Of a stretch of DNA of 37,403 nucleotides, positions 12,879-33,472 are shown one piece after another. The DNA comes from Gammaproteobacteria bacterium (lineage in GTDB: Bacteria; Pseudomonadota; Gammaproteobacteria; Pseudomonadales; Halieaceae), in contig JAUIEP010000033.1 in assembly GCA_030428835.1 (NCBI GenBank), forward strand, positions 1-37,403. The letters run 5' to 3'. Position 1 is the first letter of the stretch, and each line of letters starts with the position of its first letter. A model generated the notes under the pieces. That model did not search any database, was not told where the DNA came from, and saw only the letters and a list, made by a program, of their open reading frames with translations. Both the position numbers and the translations under genes were made by a program.

Positions 12879-13646
12879 TCAGCCGGTCAACGTGACCTTC
12901 GCCATCTTGCGCCGCAGGTAGGCGAGCTGCGTCTGCAGCGGCAGGTCCTTCGGGCACACGTCGTCGCAGCCGAGCAGTGACATGCAGCCGAAGATGCCCT
13001 CGTCCGTGCCGATCAGCTCGAAGAAGTCCGCATCCTCGCGCGTATCGCGCGGGTCCAGGCGGAAGCGCGCCATCTTGTTCAGTCCGACGGCGCCGACAAA
13101 ACTCTCGCGCATCACGGCGGTGCCGCAGCCGGCAACGCAACAGCCGCATTCGATGCAGCGCTCCAGCTCGTAGATGGCCTGCGCCGCGTCCGGGTCCATC
13201 GGGGTCTCCAGGCTGTCGAGATCGACGTCCTCGGCAACGTCCACCCAGGTCCGTAGCCGTTCGCTCATCTGCCGCATCCACTTGCCGGTGTTCACGGAGA
13301 GGTCCCCGATCAACTCGAACACGGGCAGGGGCGACAGGCGGACCGTATCGGGCAACGTGCCGGTCAGCGTGCGGCAGGCGAGCGTCGGCCGGCCGTTGAT
13401 GAGCATGGCGCAACTGCCGCAGATGCCGGCGCGACAGACGAAGTCGAACTGCAGGCCGGGATCCTGCTGCTCGCGGATCAGGTTCAGCGCGATGAACAGC
13501 GTCATGCCCGGCGCGTCGTCGAGCTCGAAGGTGTCGTAGTGTGGCCGGCTGTCGGGATCGCAGGGGTTGAAGCGAAAAATCTCGAAGCGCAGCCGGCGCG
13601 CGCCGTGCTCTTCGCCATCCTTTGCGATAACTGCGGCGTCGTTCAT
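12879..13646 (-). CDS. frdB: Quinol:fumarate reductase iron-sulfur subunit
   Basis: A 255-residue electron-transfer subunit with the N-terminal [2Fe-2S] motif CRAGICGSC plus a later Cys in LACRTL, then CIECGCCVAGC for the [4Fe-4S] cluster and CMSLLGCDDVCPKDLP for the [3Fe-4S] cluster. It relays electrons between the quinol subunit FrdC and the flavoprotein FrdA at the inner membrane. As I recall the Wolinella succinogenes FrdB, it matches closely over its whole length, apart from an N-terminal extension of about 15 residues here. The ATG overlaps the frdA stop by 4 bases, so the two are translationally coupled. Confidence 0.95.
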   Translation of the reverse strand: MNDAAVIAKDGEEHGARRLRFEIFRFNPCDPDSRPHYDTFELDDAPGMTLFIALNLIREQQDPGLQFDFVCRAGICGSCAMLINGRPTLACRTLTGTLPDTVRLSPLPVFELIGDLSVNTGKWMRQMSERLRTWVDVAEDVDLDSLETPMDPDAAQAIYELERCIECGCCVAGCGTAVMRESFVGAVGLNKMARFRLDPRDTREDADFFELIGTDEGIFGCMSLLGCDDVCPKDLPLQTQLAYLRRKMAKVTLTG

Positions 13647-15652: not shown

Positions 15653-16395
15653 GGGTGTACCTCGACCGGTTGGTAGCGCAGGCCGGGCGTGTCGCGTAGC
15701 GTCTCGCCCAGCTTGTAGTAGGCGAGCAGCGTGCTCACGCCGTGCAGGACCAGGTACACGGCGAGTCCGCCGATGATCATGCGCAGGTACTTGCGGCTGA
15801 CCGAGCGCAGCCACCCCCACTTCACGATGAGGCGGTACAGGCCGAGCGCCGCGTGTATCTCCACCACCACGAGGAGCACGAGGTACAGCGGCCACTGCGT
15901 GGAGTAGACACGCCAGGAGGAGGCGTAGGGCCCGATCTGGTCGGCCTGCGAGAACATCGTGTACAGGTGCGCCGGCGCCATGAAGAACAACAGGAAGCCC
16001 GTGACCAGTTGCCACCACCACAGCGTCGTGTCCGTGTGGTGCATGCGCCGCCTGTGCGCCAGGAAGTCCGCGTACTGCCGCGCGTTCTGCGGGAACTTGC
16101 GCATGGCGAGCACCGCGTGCAGCATCAGGAGCGCCGTGATCGCGAGCGCGACGACGGACACGAGCCACGGGTGGGAGCTGCCGAACACGTAGTAACCCTC
16201 GAACATCAGGCTGACGCGGTACATCGCCTCCTCGCTCACCAGTATCGAGGACACGAAGGTCATGTGCGCCCACATGAACAGGACGAGCAGCAGGCCGCTG
16301 GCGCCCTGCAGCAGGTCGAGGCGCGCGGGCCAGTAGCTCACGGCCGGTGCGTTACGCGGCTCCAGTTGTGCTTGCGAATGGCGACCGGCAGACAC
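15649..16395 (-). CDS. frdC: Dihaem cytochrome b membrane anchor of quinol:fumarate reductase
   Basis: A 248-residue, five-helix membrane subunit. Histidines H44, H93 and H143 fall at the Wolinella FrdC haem-ligand numbers, and H181 matches H182 there, so both haems b should be present. Glu66 (quinol-oxidation site) and E179 (equivalent of Glu180 of the proton 'E-pathway') are also conserved; these comparisons are from memory. This single dihaem anchor defines the type B succinate:quinone oxidoreductases that generally work with menaquinone. The start is GTG 16395, with GGAGG 8 bases upstream inside the end of the preceding lipase gene, only 3 bases from its stop. The stop overlaps the frdA start. 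Confidence 0.95.
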   Translation of the reverse strand: MSAGRHSQAQLEPRNAPAVSYWPARLDLLQGASGLLLVLFMWAHMTFVSSILVSEEAMYRVSLMFEGYYVFGSSHPWLVSVVALAITALLMLHAVLAMRKFPQNARQYADFLAHRRRMHHTDTTLWWWQLVTGFLLFFMAPAHLYTMFSQADQIGPYASSWRVYSTQWPLYLVLLVVVEIHAALGLYRLIVKWGWLRSVSRKYLRMIIGGLAVYLVLHGVSTLLAYYKLGETLRDTPGLRYQPVEVHP

Positions 16396-18287: not shown

Positions 18288-18584
18288 GTGGCGGAACCAG
18301 CCCCCGGCAGGCGTCCCATGGACCTCGATCGCGCCCGTACGACGCGCGGCACGGTGCATGTCATCCCGGAACGCTGCAAGGAGTGTGGCTTCTGCGTGGG
18401 TTACTGCCCCGAGGACGTCCTGGCGTTCTCGGCGGACAGCAATGCCAAGGGCTATCACTACCCCGTGCTCGCGAGCGGCCGCGAGGATGCCTGCGTGCAC
18501 TGCGGCTTCTGCAACCTGATCTGCCCCGAACTCGCCATTTTCACGACGGAGCTTGCGGATGACGCGGGGGGTACGACGTCGTGA
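18288..18584 (+). CDS. korD: 2x[4Fe-4S] ferredoxin-like subunit of 2-oxoacid:ferredoxin oxidoreductase
   Basis: A 98-residue dicluster ferredoxin-type protein. Cluster 1 uses C30, C33, C36 and C40 (CKECGFCVGYCPE) and cluster 2 uses C69, C72, C75 and C79 (CVHCGFCNLICPE). This is the delta subunit layout of KGOR/VOR-type enzymes, passing electrons from the TPP/cluster core to free ferredoxin. GTG 18288 is supported by AGGAG 8 bases upstream; ATG 18318 is possible but has no ribosome site. It is the first gene of the long operon and overlaps korA by 4 bases. Confidence 0.9.
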   Translation: MAEPAPGRRPMDLDRARTTRGTVHVIPERCKECGFCVGYCPEDVLAFSADSNAKGYHYPVLASGREDACVHCGFCNLICPELAIFTTELADDAGGTTS

Positions 18585-19741
18585 CGGCGCAGGCGGCGGG
18601 ACAGGAGCGGGTTCTCACCGGCACCCACTTCATGCTGGGCGACCATGCCTGCGCCGAGGGCGCACTGGCCGCGGGACTGGACTTCTTCGGCGGCTATCCC
18701 ATCACCCCCTCCACGGAGATCGCCGAGCGCCTCGCCCGGCGCCTGCCGCGGGTGGGCGGCAAGTTCGTGCAGATGGAGGATGAACTGGGCAGCGCCGTGG
18801 CGATCATCGGCGCCTCGGCCGCCGGCGCGCGCAGTTTCACGGCGACCTCGGGGCCGGGCTTCAGCCTCATGATGGAGAGCATCGGCCTCGCCGCCATGAT
18901 GGAGATTCCCATCGTGATCGTGGATGTACAGCGCGCGTCGCCCTCCACGGGGCTGCCCACGATGGTGGGCCAGTCCGACGCACTGCAGGCGCGCTGGGGT
19001 TCCCACGGCGACTACGGCGTCGCCGCCTACAGTCCCGCCTCGCCGCAGGAGTGCTTCGACCTCACGTTGCTGGCGTTCGACGTGGCCGACCGCTACCGGA
19101 TTCCCGTGCTGCTGATGATGGACGAGGTGGTCGCGCACATGACCGAGCGCGTGGTGATCCCCGCCGCTGACGCGATCCAGCGCGGGCAGAGGCCGCGCCC
19201 CGACCATGCGCCCGGCGCTACCCGGCACCTGCCCTACGCGGTGGGCGACACACTGGTGCCGCCGATGGCGCACGCCGGCGAGGGCTACTGCGTGCACATG
19301 ACGGGCCTCACCCACGACGAGCGCGGCTACCCCGCGCTGAACGAGGCCACCCACAACCAACTGGTGAACCGGCTGGTGGACAAGGTGCGCCTGAACGCGG
19401 GCGAGATCGAACGCTACGAGGAATACGCGCTGGAGGATGCCGAGACCGTGGTGGTGGCTTTCGGCTGCACCTCCCGCTCGGCGCGCGAGGCGGTCAAGCG
19501 CGGCCGCGCCGCGGGCAGGAAGTGCGGCCTGTTGCGGCTGGTCAGCCTGTGGCCGTTTCCGGAGGCGCGGTTGCGCGGCTTACTCGAACGCGGCCGCGTC
19601 CAGCGCTTCCTCGTACCCGAGGTCAACCTCGGGCAGATGCGGCGCGAGGTGGAGCGCCTCACGCAACTGCCCGTGCTGCGCCTCAACCACGCCGGCGGCG
19701 CCATGCCGACGCCGGAAGACATCCTGGCGGTCATCCCGTGA
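18581..19741 (+). CDS. korA: 2-oxoacid (2-oxoglutarate):ferredoxin oxidoreductase alpha subunit
   Basis: A 386-residue subunit with the pyrimidine-binding signature GGYPITPSTE at 37-46, followed by the ARSFTATSGPGFSLMMESIG region and SPSTGLPTMVGQSD typical of KorA-type subunits. It carries domains I and II of the OFOR fold. With KorB it converts a 2-oxoacid and CoA to acyl-CoA, CO2 and reduced ferredoxin, or the reverse carboxylation. The separate alpha/beta/gamma/delta subunits and the STGLPT sequence favour 2-oxoglutarate or a branched-chain 2-oxoacid; 2-oxoglutarate is inferred from the TCA-related neighbours. GTG 18581 overlaps the korD stop. Confidence 0.92.
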   Translation: MTAQAAGQERVLTGTHFMLGDHACAEGALAAGLDFFGGYPITPSTEIAERLARRLPRVGGKFVQMEDELGSAVAIIGASAAGARSFTATSGPGFSLMMESIGLAAMMEIPIVIVDVQRASPSTGLPTMVGQSDALQARWGSHGDYGVAAYSPASPQECFDLTLLAFDVADRYRIPVLLMMDEVVAHMTERVVIPAADAIQRGQRPRPDHAPGATRHLPYAVGDTLVPPMAHAGEGYCVHMTGLTHDERGYPALNEATHNQLVNRLVDKVRLNAGEIERYEEYALEDAETVVVAFGCTSRSAREAVKRGRAAGRKCGLLRLVSLWPFPEARLRGLLERGRVQRFLVPEVNLGQMRREVERLTQLPVLRLNHAGGAMPTPEDILAVIP

Positions 19742-20577
19742 GCGGTTCCGCGCCGATCATCGCCTCGACGCACCCGAACGACGGGCTGCTGCGCGCGGAC
19801 CGCTTTCCGCACATCCTCTGCCCGGGCTGCGGCATCGGCACCGTGATTCACTGCTACGTGGATGCGATGGCCGCCTCCGGCCTCGCGCTGAGCGACCACG
19901 CCTGCGTGTCCGGCATCGGCTGCAGCGGGCGCGCCGCGGGCTACGTCAATGTCGATTCCTACCACACCACCCACGGGCGGGCGCTGCCATTCGCGCTCGG
20001 CATCGCGGTGTACAAGCCGGGGATGCGCGTCACGGTGATCAGCGGCGACGGCGATCTCGCGGCTATCGGCGGCAACCACCTGATCCACGCGGCGCGGCGC
20101 AACGTGGACCTGACCGTTATCTGCATCAACAACTTCAACTACGGCATGACCGGCGGGCAGGCCGGGCCGACCTCGCCGCGCGGCAGCGTCGCCTCCACGG
20201 CGCCGGAGGGCGTGCACGACCGGCCCTTCGTGCTGCCCGATCTCGTGCGCGCCGCGGGCGCGTCGATGGTGTCGCGCTGGACGGTCCTGCACGTGCGCCA
20301 GTTGCGCGACGCCATCCTGCGCGGGATGCAGAAGCGCGGTTTCTGCTTCATCGAGGCGTTGTCGCCCTGCCCGACGAACTTCGGCCGCGCCAACGACCTC
20401 GGCGACGGCATGGCGGAGATGGAGGTCTACCGCGAGCGCTGCGAGCTCGCCGATGGCACGCCCGGCTACGACGCGCTCGACATCGACCTCACCGACCACA
20501 CCCGCCCGATCCTGGTCGGCGACTTCCTCGACATCGAGCGCACGCCCTATCAACCGGTCGGGGAGCACACGGCGTGA
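19738..20577 (+). CDS. korB: 2-oxoacid:ferredoxin oxidoreductase beta subunit (TPP-binding)
   Basis: A 279-residue TPP-binding subunit. The frame is open from 19522, but GTG 19738, overlapping the korA stop, gives the normal N-terminus. The expected [4Fe-4S] ligands are C28 and C31 (CPGCG), C62 (GIGC) and C211 (SPCPTNFG). The TPP/Mg2+ motif is GDGD at 103-106 with the following NHLIHAARRN and INNFNYGMTGGQ, which matches KorB. It catalyses the decarboxylation/carboxylation chemistry of the complex. The stop overlaps the korC start by 4 bases. Confidence 0.93.
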   Translation: MSGSAPIIASTHPNDGLLRADRFPHILCPGCGIGTVIHCYVDAMAASGLALSDHACVSGIGCSGRAAGYVNVDSYHTTHGRALPFALGIAVYKPGMRVTVISGDGDLAAIGGNHLIHAARRNVDLTVICINNFNYGMTGGQAGPTSPRGSVASTAPEGVHDRPFVLPDLVRAAGASMVSRWTVLHVRQLRDAILRGMQKRGFCFIEALSPCPTNFGRANDLGDGMAEMEVYRERCELADGTPGYDALDIDLTDHTRPILVGDFLDIERTPYQPVGEHTA

Positions 20578-21128
20578 GCGAGGGCCGGCGCGAGGTACGG
20601 ATCGGCGGCTTCGGCGGCCAGGGCATCGTGCTCGCGGGCACCCTGCTCGGCAAGGCGGCCAGCCTGTACGACGGCAAGGAGGCCGTGTTCACCCAGTCCT
20701 ACGGTCCCGAGGCGCGCGGCGGCGCCTCGCGCGCCGACGTGATCATCGACGACGAGCCGGTGGACTATCCCTACGTGACGCGACCGGATGTCGTTGCCGT
20801 CCTGTTCCAGGAGGCGTACCTCAAGTTCGCCGGCGACCTGCGCCCGGGCGGCCTGCTGATCATCGAGCCGGACCTCGTAACGCCCGAGTCCGGGGTACAC
20901 GCGCTGGCGCTGCCCGCCACGCGCATCGCCGACGAACTGGGCCGGCGCGTGGTGGCCAACGTCGTGCTGCTCGGTTGCCTCGTTCGCCACGCCGGTCTCG
21001 TGAGTCGCGACGCCGCCGAACAGGCCATACGCGAAACGGTCAAGCCCGCCACCGTGGACCTCAACCTCGAGGCTTTCGCGGCGGGTTTCGCGCACGACGC
21101 CGGCGCGGTGTCGGAGGCGGCGGGGTGA
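20574..21128 (+). CDS. korC: 2-oxoacid:ferredoxin oxidoreductase gamma subunit
   Basis: A 184-residue gamma subunit. GTG 20574 overlaps the korB stop and leads within ten residues to the diagnostic IGGFGGQGIVLAG. The ARGGASRADVIIDD segment and VRHAGLVS follow as in KorC/PorC. This subunit binds CoA and closes the active site of the complex. Four-base overlaps with genes on both sides indicate coupled translation. Confidence 0.92.
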   Translation: MSEGRREVRIGGFGGQGIVLAGTLLGKAASLYDGKEAVFTQSYGPEARGGASRADVIIDDEPVDYPYVTRPDVVAVLFQEAYLKFAGDLRPGGLLIIEPDLVTPESGVHALALPATRIADELGRRVVANVVLLGCLVRHAGLVSRDAAEQAIRETVKPATVDLNLEAFAAGFAHDAGAVSEAAG

Positions 21129-22453
21129 GCGACACCGTGCTCGTCATCGGCGGCGGCCCCACCGGGTTGCGCGCGGCCGCGGCTGTGGCGGCGGGCGGCG
21201 CCCGCGCCCTCGTGCTCGAGCAGGCGCCGGTGCTGGGCGGCAAGCGCGCGGCCATGGTGCTCGGGCCGGACGCGCCGGACCCGGCGCTCGCCGCCGTCGC
21301 GGACAACCCCGCGGTGACGTGGCACACGCTGGCGCGACTCACGGCGCTGGCCGGGGAGGCCGGCGACTTCACGGCGACCATCGTGGAGCGCCCGCGCTAC
21401 GTGACGGACGACTGCACGCGCTGCAACCACTGCGTGCCGGTCTGCCCGCAGGTGGTGGCGAACGAATACGACGCGGGGCTGACCTTTCGCAAGGCGATCC
21501 ACAGCCCGTATCCGACGACCCTGCCGGACATCTACAGCATCGACATCGACAGCTGCCTCAACGGCCCGCCCAACTACCTGCCGTGCCAGCGCTGCGCCGA
21601 GGCCTGTGACGACGACGCCATCCATTTCGACATGCCCGCACCCAAACCGCGCGACTGCAGTGTCGCCGCCGTGGTCGTGGCCACGGGCTTCGCCGCCGGC
21701 AGCGAGGAGGAGGGCAGGGTGCTCGCCGAGTTCGGCTACGGCACGCACCCGGACATCGTCAGCGGCACCGAACTGCAGCGCCTGCTGGAAGACCCGGGGC
21801 CCAGCGGCGGCTTCGCCGTGAAGCCCTCCGACGAGGGTTATCCCGACGCCGTCCTGCTGGTGCTGACCGCGGTCACGGAGGATGTGGTGTGGGTCGCGAC
21901 CAACCACCTGCGGCGCCTGGCCGCGCAGGGGGTGGGTGAGATCGCCGTCCTGGTACTGGCCCCGGGCGCCGACGATCCGCGGCTGGCCGGCCTCGCCGCG
22001 GCCGCCGCCGAGTGCGCGGCGCCGCTGCACCACGGCGGCTGGATCGGCGCCGGGCCGGCCGCGGGCGACGGTCTGGAAGTCGTGTGCACGGCGCTGCCCG
22101 GGGGCGAGAGCCTGCACCTGCGCGCCGACCTGGTGGCGCTGTTCACCGAGGTGCGACCGGACCCGGCGACGCAGGCACTGGCCGGGTTGCTGGATCTGCA
22201 GTGCGACGCACAGGGCTACCTCACGCCCACGCGACCGGGCATCTATGTCGCGGGCGGCGCGAGCGGCACGGTGGGTATCGAGGCGGGCCTCGAGCAGGCC
22301 GCGGCGGCGGCGCAGGCGGCGCTGCAGCATGTCACCGCGGAGCCAACTGAAGACACTCCCGAAACGGCGCCGCGCGAATCCCGGCTCCGCCAGGAGGACC
22401 TGGAACAGCTCCTGCACGCGCTGCTCGAGCTCGGCCGGGGTGCGGCGCGGTGA
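21125..22453 (+). CDS. HdrA-like FAD/iron-sulfur oxidoreductase
   Basis: A 442-residue protein similar to the catalytic part of heterodisulfide reductase subunit A. An N-terminal FAD fold (VIGGGPTGLRAA, 7-18) is followed by C97, C100, C103, C107 (CTRCNHCVPVCP) and by C144, C154, C157, C161, so two [4Fe-4S] clusters. Between them lies RKAIHSPYPTTLPDIYSID, the stretch usual in HdrA. VVVATGF closes the FAD domain and GIYVAGGASGTVGIEAGLEQ ends it. No HdrB, HdrC or MvhD/FlxABCD partner is encoded in the window. A flavin-based electron switch between the OFOR, ferredoxin and Rnf is plausible, but whether it bifurcates electrons cannot be told. It overlaps korC and rnfB by 4 bases each. Confidence 0.82.
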   Translation: MSDTVLVIGGGPTGLRAAAAVAAGGARALVLEQAPVLGGKRAAMVLGPDAPDPALAAVADNPAVTWHTLARLTALAGEAGDFTATIVERPRYVTDDCTRCNHCVPVCPQVVANEYDAGLTFRKAIHSPYPTTLPDIYSIDIDSCLNGPPNYLPCQRCAEACDDDAIHFDMPAPKPRDCSVAAVVVATGFAAGSEEEGRVLAEFGYGTHPDIVSGTELQRLLEDPGPSGGFAVKPSDEGYPDAVLLVLTAVTEDVVWVATNHLRRLAAQGVGEIAVLVLAPGADDPRLAGLAAAAAECAAPLHHGGWIGAGPAAGDGLEVVCTALPGGESLHLRADLVALFTEVRPDPATQALAGLLDLQCDAQGYLTPTRPGIYVAGGASGTVGIEAGLEQAAAAAQAALQHVTAEPTEDTPETAPRESRLRQEDLEQLLHALLELGRGAAR

Positions 22454-23322
22454 GCGAACTCGTTGCCGTGGCGGTACTCGGCGGGCTGACCGCACTGCTG
22501 GCGACGGTGCTGATCGTTGCCAGCCGCAAACTCGCCGTCGACGAGGACCCGCGTATCGATATCGTCGAGGGCCTGCTGCCGTCCAGCAACTGCGGCGCCT
22601 GCGGGTTCCCCGGCTGCCGCGCCTTTGCCGAGGCGCTGGTGGGTCTTGCGGCCGCGCCCTCCGGCTGCACGGTCAGTGACGACGCGGGGCGGCAGGCGAT
22701 TGCGGACCTGCTCGGCGTTTCCGTGGGGCAGGCGCGCAAGGTGGTGGCGCGGCTCGCCTGCGCGGGTGGCGACAACGTGGCGCGCGTGCGCGCCGGCTAC
22801 CAGGGCGCGCGCTCCTGCCTCGCGGCGGCGCAGGTCGCGGGCGGCGGCAAGGACTGCTTCTGGGGCTGCCTCGGTCACGGCGACTGCGCGCGCGTGTGCG
22901 AGTTCGACGCGATCGTCATGGACGCGCACGCGCTGCCGGTCGTGTTGGAGGAACGCTGCACGGCCTGCGGCGACTGCGTGGACATCTGTCCGAAGGACCT
23001 GTTCTCGCTGCAGGACACGGCCAACCGCCTGTGGGTGCGCTGCCGCAACGAGGCGTTCGGCGACGGTGTGCTGGAAGGCTGCGAGGTGGCGTGCACCGCC
23101 TGCGGCCGCTGCGCGGCGGATGCGCCCGCAGTTGTGCGCATGGAACACAACCTGCCGCGGGTGGATTACGCGGCGCACCCGGGCGAGGCGACAGGCAGGG
23201 CGGCCATCGAGCGCTGCCCGACCGGTGCCATCGTCTGGGTGGACGAGACACTGGGCGATATCAAGGGCGGGCAGGCGGCCAGGGTAGTGCGCCAGTCCGC
23301 GCGACGAGAGGCGACGACGTAG
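22450..23322 (+). CDS. rnfB: RnfB, iron-sulfur electron-entry subunit (long, anaerobe-type)
   Basis: A 290-residue protein with one N-terminal membrane helix (about 4-25) and a CX2CX4CX16C [4Fe-4S] domain (C48, C51, C56, C73). Ferredoxin-like domains follow, containing CFWGCLGHGDCARVC, CTACGDCVDICP and CTACGRCAADAP...CP. The CxxGCLGxGDC element and the length of about 290 belong to the RnfB of Clostridia, Bacteroidetes and other anaerobes; the classical gammaproteobacterial RnfB/RsxB is about 190 residues and lacks it. RnfB takes electrons from, or gives them to, soluble ferredoxin at the membrane. Here it is split from the other rnf genes by the PFOR gene, which begins on the very next base after its stop. 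Confidence 0.88.
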   Translation: MSELVAVAVLGGLTALLATVLIVASRKLAVDEDPRIDIVEGLLPSSNCGACGFPGCRAFAEALVGLAAAPSGCTVSDDAGRQAIADLLGVSVGQARKVVARLACAGGDNVARVRAGYQGARSCLAAAQVAGGGKDCFWGCLGHGDCARVCEFDAIVMDAHALPVVLEERCTACGDCVDICPKDLFSLQDTANRLWVRCRNEAFGDGVLEGCEVACTACGRCAADAPAVVRMEHNLPRVDYAAHPGEATGRAAIERCPTGAIVWVDETLGDIKGGQAARVVRQSARREATT

Positions 23323-26300: not shown

Positions 26301-28344
26301 CGGCGCCCTGCACACGCTGTTGCTGGACAAGCAGGCCTACCTCGGCCTGACCAGCGGCGACGGCGCCTGCCTCGGCTGTTCCGAGAAGACGGTGATCCAC
26401 CTGTTCACCGCGACCGTCACGGCGCTGATGCAGGGCCGCGTACGCGCCCACCTGGAAAAAATCAGCGACCTGCTGCGGCGCCTGGAGGAGCACCTGCGCA
26501 CGCGCCTCATGGAGGCCGTCGACGTGGAGGACTCGGGTACGTTCAGCGCGTTGCTCGCGGAACACGAGGGCGACCTCACCCTGTCCGACATCACCGCGCG
26601 CATGGAGCAGGTGCGCGGCGACACGCCCATCGACACGGCGTGGCTCGCGCGCGTCAACGGCCTTATCAAGGCGCTCAAGGATCTCAAGTGGCGCTACGAG
26701 GAGGGTGTCTCCGGCCGCGGCCGCGCCGCGATGGGCATGCTCAACGCCACCGGCTGCACCAGCGTCTGGGGCAGCACCTGGCCGTTCAATCCCTATCCCT
26801 TCCCCTGGTCCAACCACCTGTTCCAGGACAGCGCGTCGCTGGCCATGGGTGTGTTCGAGGGGCACATGGCGAAGATGGCCGAGGGCTTCCGCGCCGTGCG
26901 CTGCGCCGAGCTGGAACTCGCCGGCAAGTACGTGCCCGCGGAGCACGACGCGTTCTTCGCCCGCTTCGGCTGGGAGCAGTTCAGCGACGAGGAGTTCCAC
27001 CTGTGCCCGCCCGTGGTCGCGCTCGGCGGCGACGGCGCGATGTACGACATCGGTTTCCAGAACCTGTCGCGCGCCATGATGAGCGGCAAGCCCATCAAGG
27101 TCGTGGTGGTCGACACGCAGGTGTATTCGAACACGGGCGGCCAGGCCTGCACGTCGGGCTTCCTCGGGCAGGTCTCCGACATGGCCGCCTTCGGCGCCGC
27201 CTCGCCCGGCAAGCACGAGGTGCGCAAGGAGATCGGGCTGATCGCCATGGCGCACCGCACCACCTACGTCATGCAGGGCTCGATTGCCTACGCGAGCCAC
27301 ATGATCGAGGGCTTTATCGAGGGCCTGCGCGCGCGCCGCCCGGCGCTGTTCAACCTGTACACGTCGTGCCAGCCGGAACACGGCATCGGCGACGACAGGG
27401 GTTACGCGCAGGCGAAACTCGCGGTGGAGTCGCGGGCCTACCCGCTGTTCCGCTATGACCCGGACCGGGGCGCAACCCCGCAGGAGTGCTTCGACCTGGA
27501 CGGCAACCCGGCGCTTTACGACGCCTGGCCCACCTACGAGCTGACCTACCGGGAGGCGGGCCGCGAGAAGACGATGACGCTGCCGCTGACCTTCGCGGAT
27601 TTCGCCATGACGGAGGGCCGTTTCCGCAAGCACTTCCGCACCGCGCCGCCGGACACCTGGCACGACAACATGCGGCCGCTGGCCCAGTTCCTTGAGCTGG
27701 ATGCCGACGACCGCGAGGGCCTCGTGCCCTTCATCTGGAGCATCGACGCGCAGCAGCGCCTCAGTCGCCTGCTGGTGGACGGCACGATGGTCGCGTCCTG
27801 CGAGGAGCGCGCGGATTTCTGGCGCATGCTCAAGGCCATCGCCCGCGCGGAACCGGAACCCGGGGTGGCGGCGCCGGACACCGCCGCGGTGACGCGGGAC
27901 GTCATCGGCAACATCGCGCGCGGGCTGCTGCAACTCGCGGGCGGCGAGGGCGCGTCGGGCGAGCTGCTGTCCGCACTCACCGCCACGGGCGAGGCCACGG
28001 CGCGCGCGGACTCGCCGCCGCCGGGGTCACCGCCGCCAGATGCGCCTGCGTCCGCCGCGCCGGAGCCGGCCGCCGCGCCCGCGAGCGAGGGCGACTACAT
28101 GGCGCCCTGGCTGGACACGCAGGACTGCACGGCCTGCGACGAGTGCACCGCCATCAACGACCGCATCTTCGCCTACAACGACGCGAAGAAAGCCTACATC
28201 AAGGACCCCGACGGCGGCCCCTACCGCGACCTCGTCAAGGCGGCGGAGAAGTGCACGGCCAAAGTCATCCACCCGGGCCTGCCGCGCGACCGCGGCGACA
28301 AGGACATACTCAAGTGGATCAAGCGCGGTGAGAAGTACAACTGA
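23323..28344 (+). CDS. nifJ: Giant pyruvate:ferredoxin oxidoreductase with inserts and C-terminal ferredoxin domain
   Basis: A 1673-residue PFOR-type enzyme; usual PFOR/NifJ chains are about 1170-1230. Domains in order: pyrimidine-binding domain with GAYPITPST (about 44-52); domain II; gamma-like CoA domain with SVGGWGAITTGKN (about 501-513); [4Fe-4S] ligands C800, C803, C806, C810; a helical insert; a second set C938, C941, C944, C948; the TPP domain opening with SGDGACLGC and its GDG at 1236-1238 with YSNTGGQ. A charged helical insert of about 110 residues splits the TPP domain between LGCSEKT and NATGCTS. After a Pro/Ala-rich linker (about 1555-1590) a C-terminal ferredoxin-like domain uses C1602, C1605, C1608 and C1644. 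Catalysis should be pyruvate + CoA to acetyl-CoA + CO2 + reduced ferredoxin, or the reverse; another 2-oxoacid is possible. Confidence 0.88.
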   Translation: MTIAERIKGKGRETRSFKYPGIPAALDGNTAVIRCERESSDGAGAYPITPSTQMGEYWAEAAAAGHLNISGRPLIFIEPEGEHAAAAVTAGLSMSGLRAANFSSGQGIAYMHESLYAAVGKRLTYVLNIGARAMTKASLNVHAGHDDYHCVDDTGFFQLFATNAQQAADLNVIAHRIAELSLNPGIVAQDGFLTTHLIESLRVPERALIEEYLGRPDDLIAAPTPAQRIVFGEQRRRVPELWDVDNPLMSGIVQNQDSYMQSVAAQRPFYFDHIEALTEQAFEEYHELCGRRYARLATYRADDADYLLLGQGSVVPSAEVVADYLRETRKLKVGVVNLQMFRPFPADLLGEVLRGRKGVAVLERLDQPLAVDLPLMREIRATVSKCIENGRSRKNPPHAGLAAYRSLDDVPELYSGSFGLGSRDLQPEGLIAAVENMLPDGARRKHFYLSIDFVHETAHTPKQALHQDTLVDAYPHLAELALKGSENPNLMPPDSVTVRFHSVGGWGAITTGKNLAMILYELLGYHIKANPKYGSEKKGQPTTYYLSAAPEPIRINCEYFYVDTVLSPDPNVLHHTNALAGLKDGGVFVIQSDQGTPERVWARIPAHYQQQIVDRGIRVFFLDAFRIAREVATDADLQLRMQGIAFQGAFFAASPLLAEKSLTEETLLEAIRAQLQHKFGDKGARVVKENLEVVRRGYDEVQEIVDKPVGVQSVELAEQPLATAEPALPEMVKRLPASASAAGDIHRFWEQTGSFYARGQGNDNLADPFMALGVMPAASALFRDMSGIRFEHPRWIGENCTACGDCYTICPDTAIPGLVSEIQGVLDTAVARLRKAGREPQHLPRATRLLERKLRALCASGEESDAVAPLLAQAIEETLAEYEIDAGDRARLEEEFDWLRAALGDFQFALSRSFFTLPEKERPGSGGLLSITVDPYRCKGCMECVAVCGDEALVAQPQTDESEQGLKRNWDFWLDLPNTPAHYQGLDDLEEGAGALHTLLLDKQAYLGLTSGDGACLGCSEKTVIHLFTATVTALMQGRVRAHLEKISDLLRRLEEHLRTRLMEAVDVEDSGTFSALLAEHEGDLTLSDITARMEQVRGDTPIDTAWLARVNGLIKALKDLKWRYEEGVSGRGRAAMGMLNATGCTSVWGSTWPFNPYPFPWSNHLFQDSASLAMGVFEGHMAKMAEGFRAVRCAELELAGKYVPAEHDAFFARFGWEQFSDEEFHLCPPVVALGGDGAMYDIGFQNLSRAMMSGKPIKVVVVDTQVYSNTGGQACTSGFLGQVSDMAAFGAASPGKHEVRKEIGLIAMAHRTTYVMQGSIAYASHMIEGFIEGLRARRPALFNLYTSCQPEHGIGDDRGYAQAKLAVESRAYPLFRYDPDRGATPQECFDLDGNPALYDAWPTYELTYREAGREKTMTLPLTFADFAMTEGRFRKHFRTAPPDTWHDNMRPLAQFLELDADDREGLVPFIWSIDAQQRLSRLLVDGTMVASCEERADFWRMLKAIARAEPEPGVAAPDTAAVTRDVIGNIARGLLQLAGGEGASGELLSALTATGEATARADSPPPGSPPPDAPASAAPEPAAAPASEGDYMAPWLDTQDCTACDECTAINDRIFAYNDAKKAYIKDPDGGPYRDLVKAAEKCTAKVIHPGLPRDRGDKDILKWIKRGEKYN

Positions 28345-29665
28345 CAGCGCGGGTTTCGCCCACGGCGTGCACCCGCCGATGCACAAGGACGAGACCGCGG
28401 GCGCGCCCATCCGGCAGTTTCCCTTCGCGCCGGTCATGGTGGTGCCGCTCGCCCAGCACTTCGGCAGGCCGTCGCGCGCCATCGTGCGAGAGGGCCAGGA
28501 GGTGCAGCGCGGGCAGTGCCTGGCCGAGGCCGACGGCGAGGTCTCGGTGGCCACGCACGCGCCGGCGTCGGGGGTGGTCCAGCGCATCGACCTGGTGCCC
28601 GGCATCGCCGGCAGGATGGTGCCGGGCATCTACCTGAAGCCGTTCCCGGGTTCGACCCAGGAGGTCGCCGCCGGCCCCGCCTGTGATCTCGACACCGCGT
28701 CCCCCGAGGAGATCATCGCCGCCATCCAGCGCGCGGGCATCGTCGGCCTGGGCGGCGCCGCGTTTCCCACCCACGTCAAGCTGCGCTTTCCGCCGGACAA
28801 GCCCGTGGACACGCTGGTCATCAACGGCGTGGAGTGCGAGCCCTACCTCACTACCGACCACCGCGTGATGCTGGAGCAGCGCGACGACGTGTTCACGGGT
28901 ATCCGCTACCTGATGAAGGCCACCGGCGTGGCGCGGGCGATTGTCGGCGTGGAGGCCAACAAGGCGGACGTCGCCCGCGCGCTCGCGGACGCCCTGCCGG
29001 CGGACCTGCCGGTCGAGATCGGCGTGCTCCCGGTGAAGTACCCGCAGGGCGCGGAAAAAATGCTGCTCAAGGCCCTGCTGGACCGCGAGGTGCCGAGCGG
29101 GGGGCTGCCGCTCGACGTGGGCGCGGTCGTGGTGAACGTCGCGACCACGGCGGAGATCGGCCGGCTGCTGCCGCGCGGGCAGGGCATCCAGGAGCGCGTC
29201 ATCACGATCACCGGGCCCGCCGTGAAGAAGAAGGGCAACTACCGCATTCCCATCGGCACCCCGCTGCGCTTCGCCCTCGAGTACGTCGGGGTGGAGGACG
29301 ACCTCGGGCAGGTCTTCCTCGGCGGGCCAATGATGGGGCAGTCGTTGCCCAGCCTGGACATCCCGATCACCAAGGGCACGTCCGGTTTCGTCGCGTTTCG
29401 CCGCGACCAGGCGTTGCAGCAGCGCACCGAGTACCCGTGCATCAACTGCGGCTACTGCGTGGACGCCTGCCCGCTGTTCCTGAATCCGGCGCGCCTCGGC
29501 CTGCTGGCCCAGAACCGGCGCTTTGCCGACATGGCGGCCGACTATCACCTGATGGACTGCTTCGAGTGCGGTTCCTGTTCCTACGTGTGCCCGGCGCACA
29601 TTCCGCTCGTGCAGCGCTTTCGCGGCGCCAAGTCGTTCCTGCGCAAGGTGGAGGCCGCGGGATGA
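28328..29665 (+). CDS. rnfC: RnfC, NADH/FMN-binding subunit of the Rnf complex
   Basis: A 445-residue subunit. GTG 28328, overlapping the PFOR end by 17 bases, is chosen because the conserved RnfC opening (AGFAHGVHPPMHKDET, about 8-23) lies in front of the nearest ATG at 28379. The nucleotide/FMN part includes GIVGLGGAAFPTHVK and NGVECEPYLTTDHR. Two [4Fe-4S] clusters use C371, C374, C377, C381 and C411, C414, C417, C421. RnfC is the peripheral cytoplasmic subunit that exchanges electrons with NAD(H). No strong ribosome site is seen, so translation probably depends on coupling to the PFOR gene. Confidence 0.94.
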   Translation: MRSTTDSAGFAHGVHPPMHKDETAGAPIRQFPFAPVMVVPLAQHFGRPSRAIVREGQEVQRGQCLAEADGEVSVATHAPASGVVQRIDLVPGIAGRMVPGIYLKPFPGSTQEVAAGPACDLDTASPEEIIAAIQRAGIVGLGGAAFPTHVKLRFPPDKPVDTLVINGVECEPYLTTDHRVMLEQRDDVFTGIRYLMKATGVARAIVGVEANKADVARALADALPADLPVEIGVLPVKYPQGAEKMLLKALLDREVPSGGLPLDVGAVVVNVATTAEIGRLLPRGQGIQERVITITGPAVKKKGNYRIPIGTPLRFALEYVGVEDDLGQVFLGGPMMGQSLPSLDIPITKGTSGFVAFRRDQALQQRTEYPCINCGYCVDACPLFLNPARLGLLAQNRRFADMAADYHLMDCFECGSCSYVCPAHIPLVQRFRGAKSFLRKVEAAG

Positions 29666-30684
29666 GCGCGCCCGGCCGCACGCTCGCCATCGAGACCTCG
29701 CCGCACCTGGCGAGCGGCGCCAGCGTGGACACCATCATGCGCAACGTGGTGTACGCGCTGCTGCCTGTCACGTGCTGGGCCGTGTACCTGTTCGGCCTGT
29801 CCGCGCTGCTGGTGCTGGTCACCGCCGTGCTGAGCTGCGTGCTGACCGAACACCTGCTGTGTCGCGCGGCCGGTCGCCCGACGAGTGTGCGCGACTGGTC
29901 GGTGGTCATCACCGGCCTACTGTACGGACTCACGCTGCCCCCCGCGCTGCCCCTGTGGATGGTAGCGACCGGCGGCGTGATCGGCGTGGCGCTGGGCAAG
30001 TCGCTGTTCGGCGGGCTGGGCTACAACGCGTTCAACCCGGCGCTGGTCGGGCGCGTGTTCCTGCAGGCCGCGTTTCCCACGGCGATGACGACCTGGTACC
30101 CGGCACAGTTGTCCGGGCGTTTCACCGAACTGCCGGCCGCCGTCCTGACCTTCCCGTTCGCGAAGCCGGACTTCGACGGCGTCACCGCCGCCACGCCCCT
30201 GGCGCAGATGAAGTTCGACCAGGTGGCCACGCCGGCGGGCGAACTCCTGCTCGGCACCACCGCGGGCTCCACGGGCGAGACGGGAGCGCTGCTCATCCTG
30301 GCGGGCGGCGCGTGGCTCGTGGCGCGCAACATGATGAACTGGCGTATACCGGCCGCCATCTTCGCGACGGTCGCGGCGTGCAGCGCGCTGCTCCACTGGG
30401 CCTATCCCGCGCAGTACCCGGGCCCGGTGTTCATGCTGTTCTCCGGCGGGCTGATGCTCGGCGCGGTGTTCATGGCGACGGACATGGTGGCGTCGCCGAT
30501 CACCCGCCGCGGGGTGGTTCTGTACGGCGTGCTCATCGGCGCGCTGGTGGTGGTGATCCGCCTGTGGGGCGGCATGCCCGAGGGGGTGATGTACGCCATC
30601 CTGCTCGGCAACGCGGCGTCGCCCCACATCGACAACCTCGTGCGGCCGCGGGTGTTCGGTACGTCGCGGGGGCGTGCGCAGTGA
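29662..30684 (+). CDS. rnfD: RnfD, membrane flavoprotein subunit of the Rnf complex
   Basis: A 340-residue integral membrane protein of the NqrB/RnfD family. It has several hydrophobic helices, the FGGLGYNAFNPALVGRVFL segment and the flavinylation motif DGVTAATPLA in which T178 should carry covalent FMN. It shares the electron path across the membrane with RnfG. ATG 29662 overlaps the rnfC stop by 4 bases. The length is normal for the family. Confidence 0.94.
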   Translation: MSAPGRTLAIETSPHLASGASVDTIMRNVVYALLPVTCWAVYLFGLSALLVLVTAVLSCVLTEHLLCRAAGRPTSVRDWSVVITGLLYGLTLPPALPLWMVATGGVIGVALGKSLFGGLGYNAFNPALVGRVFLQAAFPTAMTTWYPAQLSGRFTELPAAVLTFPFAKPDFDGVTAATPLAQMKFDQVATPAGELLLGTTAGSTGETGALLILAGGAWLVARNMMNWRIPAAIFATVAACSALLHWAYPAQYPGPVFMLFSGGLMLGAVFMATDMVASPITRRGVVLYGVLIGALVVVIRLWGGMPEGVMYAILLGNAASPHIDNLVRPRVFGTSRGRAQ

Positions 30685-31346
30685 ACCGCGCCGATGTCAT
30701 CGCCACTGATAGCGCGCCGCGGCCGGCGTGGCAGATGTACCGCGCCATGGTCGGCGTCGGGGTGGTCTGCGCCCTGCTCATCGTCGCCGTGTACCTCGCC
30801 ACCCTCGACGTGATCGCGCGCAACCAGGTCGAGGCGCTGGAGCGGGCGGTGCTGGAAGTGGTGCCGGGCGCCGTGCGCTTCGCGCAGCGCGACGACCTCG
30901 GGCAACCGGTGTACGCCGCCTTCGACGCCGCGGGCGCGCTCGCGGGCATCGCGCTGGAGGCACAGGGCATGGGCTACCAGGACACGGTGCGCATCCTCTA
31001 CGGCTACGACCCGGCGCGCGAACAGGTGGTGGGCCTGCGCGTGTTGCAGAGCCGCGAGACGCCCGGCCTCGGCGACCGCGTCGAAACCGACGCCGCGTTC
31101 CGCGCCAACTTCGCCGCGCTGGACGTACGCCTGGCGCCGGACGGCGCTGGCCTGCTGCACCCGGTGCAACTCGTGAAACCCGGGGAGAAAACGCAAGCCT
31201 GGCAGATCGATGCCATCTCCGGCGCCACCATCACCTCGTCGGCCGTCGCCAGGATGCTGGCCGCCAGCGCGGCGCAGTGGGTGCCGATTCTGCACGCGCG
31301 GCGGGCGGAGTTCGTTGCCCCGAAGGAGGCGACCGATGGCGATTGA
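30681..31346 (+). CDS. rnfG: RnfG, periplasmic FMN-bearing subunit of the Rnf complex
   Basis: A 221-residue protein with one N-terminal membrane helix (about 22-46) and a periplasmic FMN-binding domain. SGATITSSAV near 182-191 is the flavinylation motif, with T185 as the expected covalent FMN site. GMGYQDTVRILYGYD and SRETPGLGDRVE are typical RnfG/NqrC segments. The covalent FMN on RnfG/RnfD requires an ApbE flavin transferase, which is not encoded in this window. GTG 30681 overlaps the rnfD stop. Confidence 0.93.
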   Translation: MNRADVIATDSAPRPAWQMYRAMVGVGVVCALLIVAVYLATLDVIARNQVEALERAVLEVVPGAVRFAQRDDLGQPVYAAFDAAGALAGIALEAQGMGYQDTVRILYGYDPAREQVVGLRVLQSRETPGLGDRVETDAAFRANFAALDVRLAPDGAGLLHPVQLVKPGEKTQAWQIDAISGATITSSAVARMLAASAAQWVPILHARRAEFVAPKEATDGD

Positions 31347-31977
31347 GCAGCGCGACGCGCCCGCCGCCGACGACCTGCTCAAGGGGCTGTGGCGCGAGAA
31401 TCCCGTGTTCGTGCAGCTGCTCGGCATGTGCCCCGTGCTCGCGGTGACCAACTCCGCGATCAACGGCCTGTCCATGGGCATCGCGACGCTGTTCGTGCTG
31501 GTGCTGTCGAATACGCTGGTGTCGCTGTTGCGCCGCGCCATCCCGCGCGAGGTGCGCATCGCGACGTTTATCCTGATCATCGCCTCCTTCGTCACGGTCG
31601 TGGACTACCTCATACAGGCCGTCAGCCTGGAGCTGCACAAGAGCCTCGGCGCTTTCATTTCCCTCATCGTGGTGAACTGCCTGATACTCGGCCGCGCGGA
31701 GGCCTTCGCATCGCGCCACGGCGTCTCCCGCGCGGTGCTCGACGGGTTGGGCATGGGACTGGGCTTCACGTTTGCGCTGCTGTGCATGGGCGCGGTGCGC
31801 GAACTGCTGGGCAGCGGGACCCTGTTCGGCGTCGCCGTGCTGCCGGACGCGTTCCAGCCCTGGGTCGTGATGGTGTTGCCCGGCGGCGGCTTCTTCACGC
31901 TCGGGGCCCTGCTGCTGTTGATCAACCACATGCAGGCACGCCGCGCCGCGTCCGCCATACCCGTGGAGCAGGCATGA
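31336..31977 (+). CDS. rnfE: RnfE, integral membrane subunit of the Rnf complex
   Basis: A 213-residue polytopic membrane protein of the RnfE/NqrD family, with LLKGLWRENPVFVQLLGMCP at the N-terminus, the VNCLILGRAEAFA half-motif whose cysteine takes part in the membrane [2Fe-2S] site formed with RnfA, and six predicted helices. ATG 31336 follows a strong AAGGAGG, 6 bases away, and overlaps the end of rnfG by 11 bases. Confidence 0.94.
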   Translation: MAIEQRDAPAADDLLKGLWRENPVFVQLLGMCPVLAVTNSAINGLSMGIATLFVLVLSNTLVSLLRRAIPREVRIATFILIIASFVTVVDYLIQAVSLELHKSLGAFISLIVVNCLILGRAEAFASRHGVSRAVLDGLGMGLGFTFALLCMGAVRELLGSGTLFGVAVLPDAFQPWVVMVLPGGGFFTLGALLLLINHMQARRAASAIPVEQA

Positions 31978-32558
31978 ACGACGCCAGCCTGTGGTCCGTG
32001 TTTATCAACGCCAGCCTGGTGAACAACTTCGTGCTCGCCTATTTCCTGGGTATCTGCCCGTTTCTCGGTGTGTCGGGCAAGCTCGCCACCGCCACGCGCA
32101 TGGGTGCCGCCGTGACCTTCGTCATGCTGGTCGCCGCCGGCAGCGCCTATGCGGTCAACCTGTTGCTGGAGTGGGCCGGCGTACCGTACCTGCGGCTGAT
32201 CTGTTACATCGTCATCATCGCCTCGACCGTGCAGTTCGTGGAGATGCTGGTGAAGAAGCTGAGCCGCGCGCTGTTCCGCGCGCTCGGCATCTTCCTGCCG
32301 CTCATCACGACCAACTGCGCGATACTCGGCCTCGCGCTGTTCCAGACCAACCGCGAGTACGACCTGGCGCAGAGTCTCGTGTTCGCGCTGGGCGCCGGCG
32401 CGGGCTTCACGCTGGCCCTGGTGCTCATGGCCGGCATCCGCGAAAAACTTGAACTGGCGAGCGTGCCCGACGTGGCGCGCGGCGCCGCCATCACGCTCAT
32501 GGTGGCGGGCATTCTGTCACTGTCCTTTATGGGATTTGCAGGGCTCGGCGCCGGCTGA
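31974..32558 (+). CDS. rnfA: RnfA, integral membrane subunit of the Rnf complex
   Basis: A 194-residue polytopic protein of the RnfA/NqrE family, related to RnfE as an inverted-topology partner. Recognisable are the NNFVLAYFLGICPFLGVS opening with its conserved cysteine and LPLITTNCAILGLALF with the second. Together with RnfE it makes the membrane iron-sulfur centre and ion path. ATG 31974 overlaps the rnfE stop by 4 bases. It completes the Rnf set: rnfB upstream and rnfCDGEA here. Confidence 0.94.
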   Translation: MNDASLWSVFINASLVNNFVLAYFLGICPFLGVSGKLATATRMGAAVTFVMLVAAGSAYAVNLLLEWAGVPYLRLICYIVIIASTVQFVEMLVKKLSRALFRALGIFLPLITTNCAILGLALFQTNREYDLAQSLVFALGAGAGFTLALVLMAGIREKLELASVPDVARGAAITLMVAGILSLSFMGFAGLGAG

Positions 32559-32585
32559 CGGCGCCCTGGGAGGGAGGAACGCAAC

Positions 32586-33470
32586 ATGCGGTTGGAAGAC
32601 TACGACACCGGCGAGCGCTACCGGGCCAGGATCCTGGCCAACGCCGCCGTGACGGGACCGGAGGCCACCGAGGAGGTGCGCGAGCTGACGCTGGAGGTCG
32701 ACCGCGACGACTTTGCCTACGCGATCGGGCAGAGCGTGGGTGTGATCGTCGAGGGTCCTTTCCGGCAGGCGGTGCGCGCGGATCTCGACCTCGGGCACCC
32801 GCACCATTTCCGCCTGTACACTATCGCCGACACCCCCGGCAGGAGCGAGCGCGGCAAGCCCGTCGTGAAACTGTGCGTCAGGCGCTGCAGTTATATCGAC
32901 GAGCACACGGGCGAGGAGTACCCCGGCATCGCGTCAAACTACCTCTGCGACCGCCGGCACGACGACGTGATCAGCATCAACGGCCCGTTCGGCATCCCGT
33001 TCGATGTGCCCGCGGACCCCGAGGCCGACCTGTTGCTGATCGGCATGGGTACCGGGATCGCCCCGTTTCGCGCACTCGTGAAACACATCTACCGCGAGGT
33101 CAAGGACTGGCGCGGCCGTGTGCGCCTGTTCTACGGCGCGCGCACCGGCATGGAACTGCTGTACATGAACGACGAGATCGACGACTTCACCCAGTACTAC
33201 GACGAGGACACCTTCGAGGCCTTCAAGGCGCTGAGTCCGCGGCCGCAGTGGAACGCGCCGGCGGACTATGCGACCGAGATTCGCGGCCGCGCCGGGGAAG
33301 TGCTCGAGATACTGCGCAGCGAGCACGGCTACGTGTACGTCGCCGGCCGCCACGACATCCTCGGGGTGCTGGAGAAGACGCTGTCGGGACTACTGGATTC
33401 GGAGCAGGAGTGGCAGTCGCTCAAGCTGGCGAAGAGTCGCTCGGGGCACTGGCGCGAACTGGTGTACTGA
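32586..33470 (+). CDS. Plant-type ferredoxin-NADP+ reductase
   Basis: A 294-residue FAD protein. RLYTIADT at 76-83 is the flavin-binding RxY(S/T) motif, and NYLCDRRHDD, NGPFGIPF and GMGTGIAPFRAL (153-164) are the phosphate and NADP-binding regions. The chain ends in RELVY, with the terminal aromatic residue that stacks on the flavin in plant-type FNRs. It is closest in style to the oxygenic and BoxA-like reductases rather than to the bacterial Fpr type. It should exchange electrons between ferredoxin and NADP(H). A G-rich ribosome site (GGGAGGGAGG) precedes the ATG, 27 bases after rnfA, so it is the final gene of the operon, giving ferredoxin an NADPH outlet beside the NAD-linked Rnf. Confidence 0.9.
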   Translation: MRLEDYDTGERYRARILANAAVTGPEATEEVRELTLEVDRDDFAYAIGQSVGVIVEGPFRQAVRADLDLGHPHHFRLYTIADTPGRSERGKPVVKLCVRRCSYIDEHTGEEYPGIASNYLCDRRHDDVISINGPFGIPFDVPADPEADLLLIGMGTGIAPFRALVKHIYREVKDWRGRVRLFYGARTGMELLYMNDEIDDFTQYYDEDTFEAFKALSPRPQWNAPADYATEIRGRAGEVLEILRSEHGYVYVAGRHDILGVLEKTLSGLLDSEQEWQSLKLAKSRSGHWRELVY

Positions 33471-33472
33471 GG

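Follow-up and report, generated by a model that had tools for sequence, protein, structure and literature searches.

The Rnf complex, with RnfB as its ferredoxin-side subunit and RnfC as its NAD side, has mostly been studied with a soluble, diffusing ferredoxin partner. Here we examine a 37,403-base stretch of gammaproteobacterial DNA (the whole of contig C25 in a Halieaceae genome of 5.23 Mb and 319 contigs, hereafter the window), in which a predicted operon of 13 genes brings together the six rnf genes, a giant pyruvate:ferredoxin oxidoreductase (PFOR), a putative four-subunit 2-oxoglutarate:ferredoxin oxidoreductase (KGOR), a short HdrA-like flavoprotein and a ferredoxin-NADP reductase (FNR). 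In tubeworm symbionts and in Thioflavicoccus mobilis, genes for KorABCD, Hdr, Rnf and fumarate reductase are on record as clusters (PMC6315080, PMC11636981), and the operon has in common with these clusters, associated with the reductive tricarboxylic acid (rTCA) cycle, a four-subunit KorABCD, an adjoining HdrA, Rnf and fumarate reductase. As described in the available portions of these papers, the known clusters also have aclAB, flxABCD-hdrABC, pntAB and tfrAB, while neither a giant PFOR-ferredoxin between rnfB and rnfC nor an FNR is mentioned there. The locus differs from those of the tubeworm symbionts further in that no ATP-citrate lyase (ACL) was detected in its genome, its HdrA-like protein is short, and hdrBC and flx genes are missing from the operon. 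Two rnf gene orders, BCDGEA and CDGEAB, appear in the accessible text of earlier work (PMC4014512, PMC3534657), and the operon follows the former, described there for Chlorobi/Bacteroidetes (PMC4014512).

A 2025 review of Rnf and Nqr (PMC12174285) does not, in its available part, use the term 'PFOR', and mentions 'pyruvate' twice, in a section on clostridial glutamate fermentation. In the literature, covered mostly outside subscription journals, we found no description of a PFOR within an rnf operon, of a ferredoxin fused to it, or of the pseudo-PFOR array presented below. The parts of the operon are known families; their arrangement and the ferredoxin fusion appear to be new. A first-pass annotation, made from the letters of the window, had listed the 13 genes in the order found here and had known of no described precedent for this exact operon in a proteobacterium with such surroundings. 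This last statement agrees with the literature as searched and fails for genomes, where the core of the operon is common and the full order recurs in a Lysobacterales metagenome-assembled genome (MAG). Its proposal of a ferredoxin hub is supported, and is strengthened by the PFOR-fused ferredoxin and by the conservation of the core; the fusion, the spread of the core over many phyla and the sister array had been missed.

We regard the operon as probably, if only just, an Rnf-coupled 2-oxoacid oxidoreductase module that works mainly in the oxidative direction, conserves energy at low oxygen and is reversible. The grounds for such a module are the catalytic and cluster residues of the PFOR together with its own ferredoxin, the position of its gene between rnfB and rnfC, and the parallel evolutionary distances of PFOR, Rnf and FNR. 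In the proposed mechanism the giant PFOR would convert pyruvate to acetyl-CoA and CO2, and the electrons would pass from its clusters to the tethered ferredoxin, on to RnfB, across the membrane to RnfC and finally to NAD+, with ions being pumped, while FNR would make NADPH from the same ferredoxin pool. The KGOR and the short HdrA-like flavoprotein, added on the 5' side in this genome, would let 2-oxoglutarate use the same outlet, fumarate reductase and malic enzyme alongside could balance redox, and carboxylation might be driven in reverse when NADH and the ion gradient are plentiful. If this is true, 2-oxoacid chemistry would be tied to an ion gradient far beyond the strict anaerobes, including in hosts usually held to be aerobic.

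A giant PFOR that carries its own ferredoxin

The families of all 13 genes were assigned by NCBIfam models and PDB matches, with which Pfam agrees (Table 1). At the profile level, domains I-III of the giant PFOR, both of its ferredoxin-type clusters, its proximal cluster and its thiamine diphosphate (ThDP) site all align with structures 6cin, 7plm and 1b0p. The giant PFOR shares these domains, clusters and ThDP site with the single-chain enzymes of Desulfovibrio africanus (1b0p) and Moorella (6cin), and exceeds them by about 440-500 residues, owing to inserts and to the fusion of a domain resembling ferredoxin I. Comparative counts draw on a scan of named genomes, in which at least 569 stretches, not necessarily all of the giant type, encoded a PFOR relative at E<=1e-3 among the 594 listed pattern matches; the best 80 of these are the named loci referred to throughout. 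An alignment of 89 rows was assembled from the window, all named loci but one (79 of 80) and nine further rows, one of which is identical to a named row; L128, which has one internal stop, was excluded from the tree and the residue counts. In the D. africanus enzyme we take T31 and R114 to bind pyruvate and E64 to activate ThDP. Their equivalents are conserved in every row that has the column (T49 in 86/86, E82 in 87/87 and R132 in 89/89), as are the twelve cluster cysteines (89/89). The protein scores 415 bits against the pyruvate:ferredoxin oxidoreductase equivalog TIGR02176 and does not reach its cut-off of 911, so that it appears to be a divergent branch with pyruvate as its presumed substrate.

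The last ~80 residues of the giant PFOR match D. africanus ferredoxin I in sequence (E=2.6e-6), and their predicted fold (mean pLDDT 82) retrieves 1fxr in Foldseek (E 9.7e-4, TM 0.84 on target). The four cluster cysteines of this tail are present in all 88 rows that reach the C-terminus, the remaining row, L102, being cut off there. This match, together with the retained cysteines, indicates that the giant PFOR carries its own ferredoxin, as a fused domain, whereas ferredoxin I of D. africanus is a separate protein. Besides the ferredoxin-like KorD, no separate ferredoxin gene is found among the 13 genes of the operon.

All six Rnf subunits (A, B, C, D, E and G) are encoded, five of them scoring over their NCBIfam subfamily cut-offs and RnfG under. 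The long RnfB matches the RnfB chains in structures 7zc6 (E=2.6e-49) and 9eri (E=9.4e-49); the six subunits and the long RnfB are common to these complexes and the operon, which differs in having the PFOR-ferredoxin gene between rnfB and rnfC and fnr at its end. The ApbE flavin transferase, one of the genes that the first-pass annotation suggested looking for, has four matches over the cut-off in the genome. As to the FNR, its NAD-binding domain alone passed in Pfam, and the match to 1sm4 is full-length, covering the FAD and NADP domains; it aligns with NADP-dependent plant enzymes, and its presumed 2'-phosphate-binding loop contains Ser and Arg. A second rnfC lies elsewhere in the genome (contig C44, 327-1625) and outscores that of the operon at 637 bits, which makes the operon's Rnf probably an additional copy.

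Conservation and apparent co-inheritance of the core

By title, the 80 named loci belong to Gammaproteobacteria, Bacteroidota, Myxococcota, Acidobacteriota, Planctomycetota, Calditrichota, Hydrogenedentota, Verrucomicrobiota and others, and many are metagenome bins. Downstream of the PFOR, rnfC follows within 1.2 kb in 65 of the 66 loci with at least 1.3 kb of sequence there (the exception is L076), rnfA was found in 50 of 52 loci with 5.5 kb, and where 6.7 kb were available, 44 of 50 loci have fnr. The position of rnfB is more variable: of 47 loci with both flanks, 27 have it just before the PFOR gene, 19 have it downstream and one has it in neither position. Within the class, PFOR matches at E<=1e-100 occur in 29 of 369 genomes, namely our own, 20 with the giant type (56-81% identity) and eight with other types only. 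Here rnfB and/or rnfC lie within flanks of up to 1.5 kb in 20 of the 21 giant PFOR loci, as against 0/11 for the ordinary PFORs of relatives and 0/6 for a PFOR type of 39-46% identity. In the same genus the giant PFOR is found in only 2 of 17 genomes, at 72-73% identity (57 genomes were searched as relatives, our own included). The recurrence of the core in many phyla argues that the arrangement goes beyond chance.

Evolutionary distances point the same way. For the window and the 44 of the 80 loci in which each of the six genes was present at 70% coverage, Mantel correlations of PFOR distances were 0.83 with RnfB, 0.94 with RnfC, 0.86 with RnfD, 0.85 with RnfE and 0.93 with FNR, and for each gene none of 999 permutations was as high. 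The gammaproteobacterium Methylotuvimicrobium buryatense has a core in Bacteroidota gene order, with rnfB last; its PFOR falls within Cyclobacteriaceae in the tree, and for each of the six genes tested Cecembia, a member of that family, is its closest match. The core thus seems, as judged from these sequences, to travel as a unit. Genetic tools have been reported for M. buryatense (PMC7154130, accessible part), so that the direction of Rnf in such bacteria is open to experiment. In the tree, the PFOR of the window falls among Gammaproteobacteria, with L108 (uncultured Pseudomonadales) as sister row and Haliea sp. Ww141 and Exilibacterium as the nearest rows by path.

Crude clustering of flanking open reading frames (ORFs) in the 80 named loci, three further loci (L054, L055 and L057) and the window gave no conserved set of flanking pathway genes, a candidate that was dropped. 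The recurrent and interpretable clusters outside the core were only kor/hdrA and a HEPN-like ORF (16 loci), part of the members of the other recurrent clusters having been looked up. The latter is a small conserved ORF of ~119-139 aa directly upstream of the giant PFOR (L130:9476-9853 and 15 further loci); the loci concerned have their genes in Bacteroidota order, and one member shows a weak HEPN match that stays sub-threshold.

A sister array with PFOR-like proteins

Three genomes of the class (G387, G090 and G405) hold a second arrangement, in the order korA-korB, a PFOR-C-half protein, ferredoxin, rnfB, a PFOR-like protein and rnfCDGEA. The PFOR-C-half protein has 750-840 residues and is related to the C-terminal half of PFOR. 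The ferredoxin, 39-52% identical to the tail of the giant PFOR, is fused to it in G387 and G405 and lies in another frame or gene in G090, where sucC and sucD also stand between the PFOR-like gene and rnfC. In the one array scanned, L179, KorA and KorB have their usual domains. The PFOR-like protein measures ~1540-1560 residues in these three genomes and is shorter, at 1277, in the Lewinellaceae locus L121, where the portion from ferredoxin (46%) to rnfA occupies 405-9677, directly upstream of the main core. These four sequences are divergent (25-31% identity), and their alignments show no conservation of the ThDP-activating Glu, of the GDG motif or of the four cysteines of the proximal cluster. 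Three of the four keep the R114 equivalent, and all four retain the eight cysteines that belong to the two ferredoxin-type clusters. A protein that is encoded between genes for a 2-oxoacid oxidoreductase and for Rnf, and that has lost catalysis but retained its Fe-S wiring, fits the expectation for an electron-conducting scaffold, which suggests that the PFOR-like proteins act as such. The available text on Endoriftia mentions co-decreasing 'PFOR-like' and korAB(3) genes (PMC11636981).

The sister array also offers what we regard as the strongest, though indirect, sign that PFOR and Rnf are physically coupled in the main module. PFOR and Rnf could form a single membrane-bound supercomplex, in which the fused ferredoxin would swing between the PFOR clusters and RnfB and no free ferredoxin would be involved. 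The sister-array PFOR would be a non-catalytic, cluster-bearing scaffold wiring KorAB (for 2-oxoglutarate) to Rnf, and the window would present a third way of attaching a KGOR, via the short HdrA-like flavoprotein. We hold this extended model as a tentative possibility whose chances fall somewhat below even.

The KGOR genes and the HdrA-like protein

All four KGOR subunits (alpha, beta, gamma and delta) are encoded in the operon. Models specific for 2-oxoglutarate match korD, korA and korB, each under its cut-off, and the second-best structural match of korA is the alpha subunit of a 2-oxoglutarate synthase (8ys5). The HdrA-like protein has in common with methanogen HdrA (5odc) an FAD domain and an inserted domain with two [4Fe-4S] motifs, whose eight cysteines are invariant in four sequences; its main match spans residues 145-385 of the 5odc chain only. 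In the same alignment it lacks the N-terminal Fe-S domain, the C-terminal ferredoxin domain and the cysteine following the FAD stretch (presumably a feature of HdrA), and with these N- and C-terminal parts missing it is to be called HdrA-like, not an HdrA. An AlphaFold model built with four sequences leads Foldseek to HdrA, and at its low confidence (mean pLDDT 62) backs the sequence match and adds little to it. Matches in 62 other genomes of the class cover residues ~2-255 only, at 27-37% identity, too partial to measure co-occurrence. A role of this protein between the KGOR and the rest of the operon is a guess.

KGOR genes adjoin the core in 7 of the 80 named loci, 51 of which have at least 7 kb of upstream flank. 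Four have a four-subunit KGOR, in L074 and L075 (both Woeseiaceae), L095 (Lysobacterales) and L137 (Hydrogenedentota); L074 is cut by the contig end, and an hdrA-like gene accompanies the KGOR in the three complete loci. The unit is divergent next to the core in L074, L075 and L137, whereas the L095 MAG has all 13 genes in the order and direction of the window. The remaining three (L063, L097 and L101) are of the korAB type.

Direction of electron flow and alternative explanations

The sequence does not settle the direction of electron flow, which the first-pass annotation had likewise left open, and our lean towards oxidation at low oxygen is owed to an Fnr/Anr-like box in the window and its close relatives, neighbouring glycogen, zwf and gnd genes, frdCAB, malic enzyme, and the negative searches for ACL and nifH. 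The box (TCGATGTGAATCAA; we assume the consensus used for the scan to be that of Fnr/Anr) sits in a 241-base divergent intergenic region, similar boxes precede rnfB in G002, G016, Haliea Ww141 and Exilibacterium, and a weaker one with two mismatches (35179-35192) is found 67 bases upstream of malic enzyme. As a general feature of the module the box was rejected, since it is present in 2 of 70 testable named loci, in line with a control rate of 2.7%, and it is retained, weakly, for the closest relatives. Genes for zwf, gnd, glycogen synthase and phosphorylase lie beside the core in G002, with homologues beside the core in G016, both genomes being of the same genus as the window. In the Riftia symbionts, according to the accessible part of one report, a PFOR rises along with a gene of glycogen catabolism when oxygen is limiting (PMC11636981), which would fit oxidation here if that PFOR belongs to the present family. 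The genome is 99.98% complete and 3.06% contaminated, and a search of it for ACL (PF16114) gave no match; the same search was positive in one of five further genomes, that of the Lamellibrachia symbiont. An ACL-type rTCA cycle is therefore unlikely, which weakens the reductive-carboxylation option offered at first pass. A nitrogenase-supporting Rnf was rejected, as nifH had no match over the cut-off in the genome.

Several observations weigh against the favoured reading. KGOR and PFOR are also the carboxylating pair, and many core hosts are aerobes (Algoriphagus, Allomuricauda, M. buryatense). MenD, which bears on the quinone partner of fumarate reductase, has no match over the cut-off in the genome. 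The box pattern (up to two mismatches) occurs 14 times in the window against 4.3 expected, mostly within genes; no box precedes the core in the tree sister L108, three of the five box-positive loci have one and the same sequence there, and the rate among named loci is as given above. The fnr gene is missing from 6 of the 50 loci in which it could be sought, and L042 (contig C50 of G092; L180), which is truncated on the upstream side, encodes a giant PFOR-ferredoxin that no rnf gene follows within ~7 kb. For PFOR, RnfD and FNR the window has its nearest match in Haliea, which for RnfB is not among the five nearest, so that RnfB may have a history of its own. Co-transcription and protein contact, finally, are predictions.

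The carboxylating pair raises the converse reading, in which NADH and the ion gradient would yield reduced ferredoxin via Rnf, and PFOR and KGOR would act as pyruvate and 2-oxoglutarate synthases in anaplerotic or mixotrophic CO2 fixation or in the assimilation of acetate or polyhydroxyalkanoate. Core relatives include Sedimenticola, Thiodiazotropha and the Lamellibrachia symbiont, which are lithoautotrophs or symbionts of that kind. One operon holds both ferredoxin-dependent carboxylases, and the available text of several papers places a four-subunit KGOR and Rnf in tubeworm-symbiont rTCA clusters (PMC6315080, PMC11636981), takes PFOR as a heterotrophic carboxylase in Ca. Kentron (PMC6593406) and describes Rnf running backwards for nitrogenase (PMC12174285). 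The missing ACL, the box (weak evidence in itself) and the glycogen-metabolism neighbours in close relatives speak on the other side, as does an ICL-family gene in the genome, which possibly provides a glyoxylate shunt, so that growth on acetate need not use PFOR; we consider predominantly reverse operation fairly unlikely. Physical coupling is likewise open to dispute, as the locus might serve a shared pool of soluble ferredoxin, with Rnf and FNR balancing NADH and NADPH by means of the ion gradient and the clustering reflecting co-regulation. The FNR, frequent as it is (44/50 loci) and similar to NADP-dependent plant enzymes down to the putative 2'-phosphate loop, would suit this arrangement; but the fusion of ferredoxin to PFOR in 88/88 rows, the PFOR gene between rnfB and rnfC in 27/47 loci, and sister-array proteins stripped of catalytic residues with their cluster cysteines kept make such loose association distinctly improbable.

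It could also be asked whether kor-hdrA and rnf-PFOR-fnr are two unrelated units, neighbours by chance. The cores of G002 and G016 have no adjoining kor-hdrA unit, neither genome has a korA match at E<=1e-40, and a search of 140 genomes of the family, our own among them, gave 45% identity for the korA ranking next after our own (G466, E 2.4e-96), the remaining matches, at E 3.1e-55 or weaker, being mostly long frames of the fused alpha type. Yet 4-base overlaps run through hdrA-rnfB, L095 has the same order, a KGOR stands beside the core in 7/80 loci of several phyla, and in three genomes the sister array, too, begins with korAB, so that a chance neighbourhood seems very improbable indeed.

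Organization of the locus and its surroundings

The 13 genes (korD-korA-korB-korC-hdrA-like-rnfB-PFOR-rnfC-rnfD-rnfG-rnfE-rnfA-fnr) run in one direction on the + strand from 18288 to 33470. Their junctions measure, in order, -4, -4, -4, -4, -4, 0, +34, -4, -4, -11, -4 and +27 bases, so that the overlaps or spacings of 0 to 27 bases claimed at first pass apply to 11 of the 12; the PFOR-rnfC gap is 34 bases, or 22 if rnfC starts at an upstream GTG. This spacing suggests that the genes are co-transcribed. Simple scans of 17500-33700 gave four terminator-like sites (5.2 expected), every one within the PFOR gene, and one promoter-like site (0.7 expected), within rnfC, with none upstream of korD. 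Fumarate reductase is divergent and malic enzyme convergent, as had been noted.

Table 1. Positions of the operon genes, neighbouring features of the window and the sister arrays (the latter in coordinates of their own loci)
Feature	Position	Strand	Evidence or remark
korD, 2x[4Fe-4S] ferredoxin-like delta subunit	18288..18584	+	OGOR_delta 56 bits, under cut-off 125; Fer4 domains
korA, alpha subunit	18581..19741	+	NF006412 510 bits, over cut-off; POR_N + PFOR_II; PDB 1yd7, 8ys5
korB, ThDP-binding beta subunit	19738..20577	+	NF007207 221 bits, under cut-off 364; TPP_enzyme_C
korC, gamma subunit	20574..21128	+	NF006323 209 bits, under cut-off 235; POR
Short HdrA-like flavoprotein, 442 aa	21125..22453	+	HdrA 5odc E=2e-35, main stretch residues 4-247
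rnfB, long form, 290 aa	22450..23322	+	TIGR01944 84 bits, over cut-off 68.7
Giant PFOR with C-terminal ferredoxin, 1673 aa	23323..28344	+	PFOR domains; profile match 6cin/7plm/1b0p
C-terminal ferredoxin domain of giant PFOR	28096..28341	+	D. africanus ferredoxin I match; Foldseek 1fxr
rnfC	28379..29665	+	TIGR01945 456 bits, over cut-off
rnfD	29662..30684	+	TIGR01946 319 bits, over cut-off; PF03116
rnfG	30681..31346	+	TIGR01947 86 bits, under cut-off 102; FMN_bind domain
rnfE	31336..31977	+	TIGR01948 253 bits, over cut-off
rnfA	31974..32558	+	TIGR01943 234 bits, over cut-off
fnr, plant-type ferredoxin-NADP reductase	32586..33470	+	PDB 1sm4 E=9e-31, residues 9-294; C-terminal Tyr
Fnr/Anr-like box TCGATGTGAATCAA	18118..18131	+	1 mismatch to consensus; 156 bases before korD start
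frdCAB, quinol:fumarate reductase	12879..16395	-	divergent neighbour, upstream of operon
frdC	16395-15649	-	
frdA	about 15649-13643	-	
frdB	13646-12879	-	
ORF	16399-17595		weak, sub-threshold alpha/beta match; between frdCAB and operon
Small ion-channel gene	17558-18046	-	shares divergent intergenic region with operon
Malic enzyme	33480-35111	-	convergent neighbour, downstream of operon
Sister array L177	1184-15613		
Sister array L178	1886-17997	-	holds sucCD
Sister array L179	1914-16268	-	

Adjoining malic enzyme is a gene for a DUF3604 protein of 643 aa (35260-37191, - strand). At the other end of the window, positions 2000-12000 have a G+C content of 53-58%, against 66-72% in the rest of the contig, and carry genes for a P450, a luciferase-like monooxygenase, an AMP-binding enzyme, a short-chain dehydrogenase/reductase (SDR) and a TonB-receptor; this stretch is either an acquired island or an assembly join.

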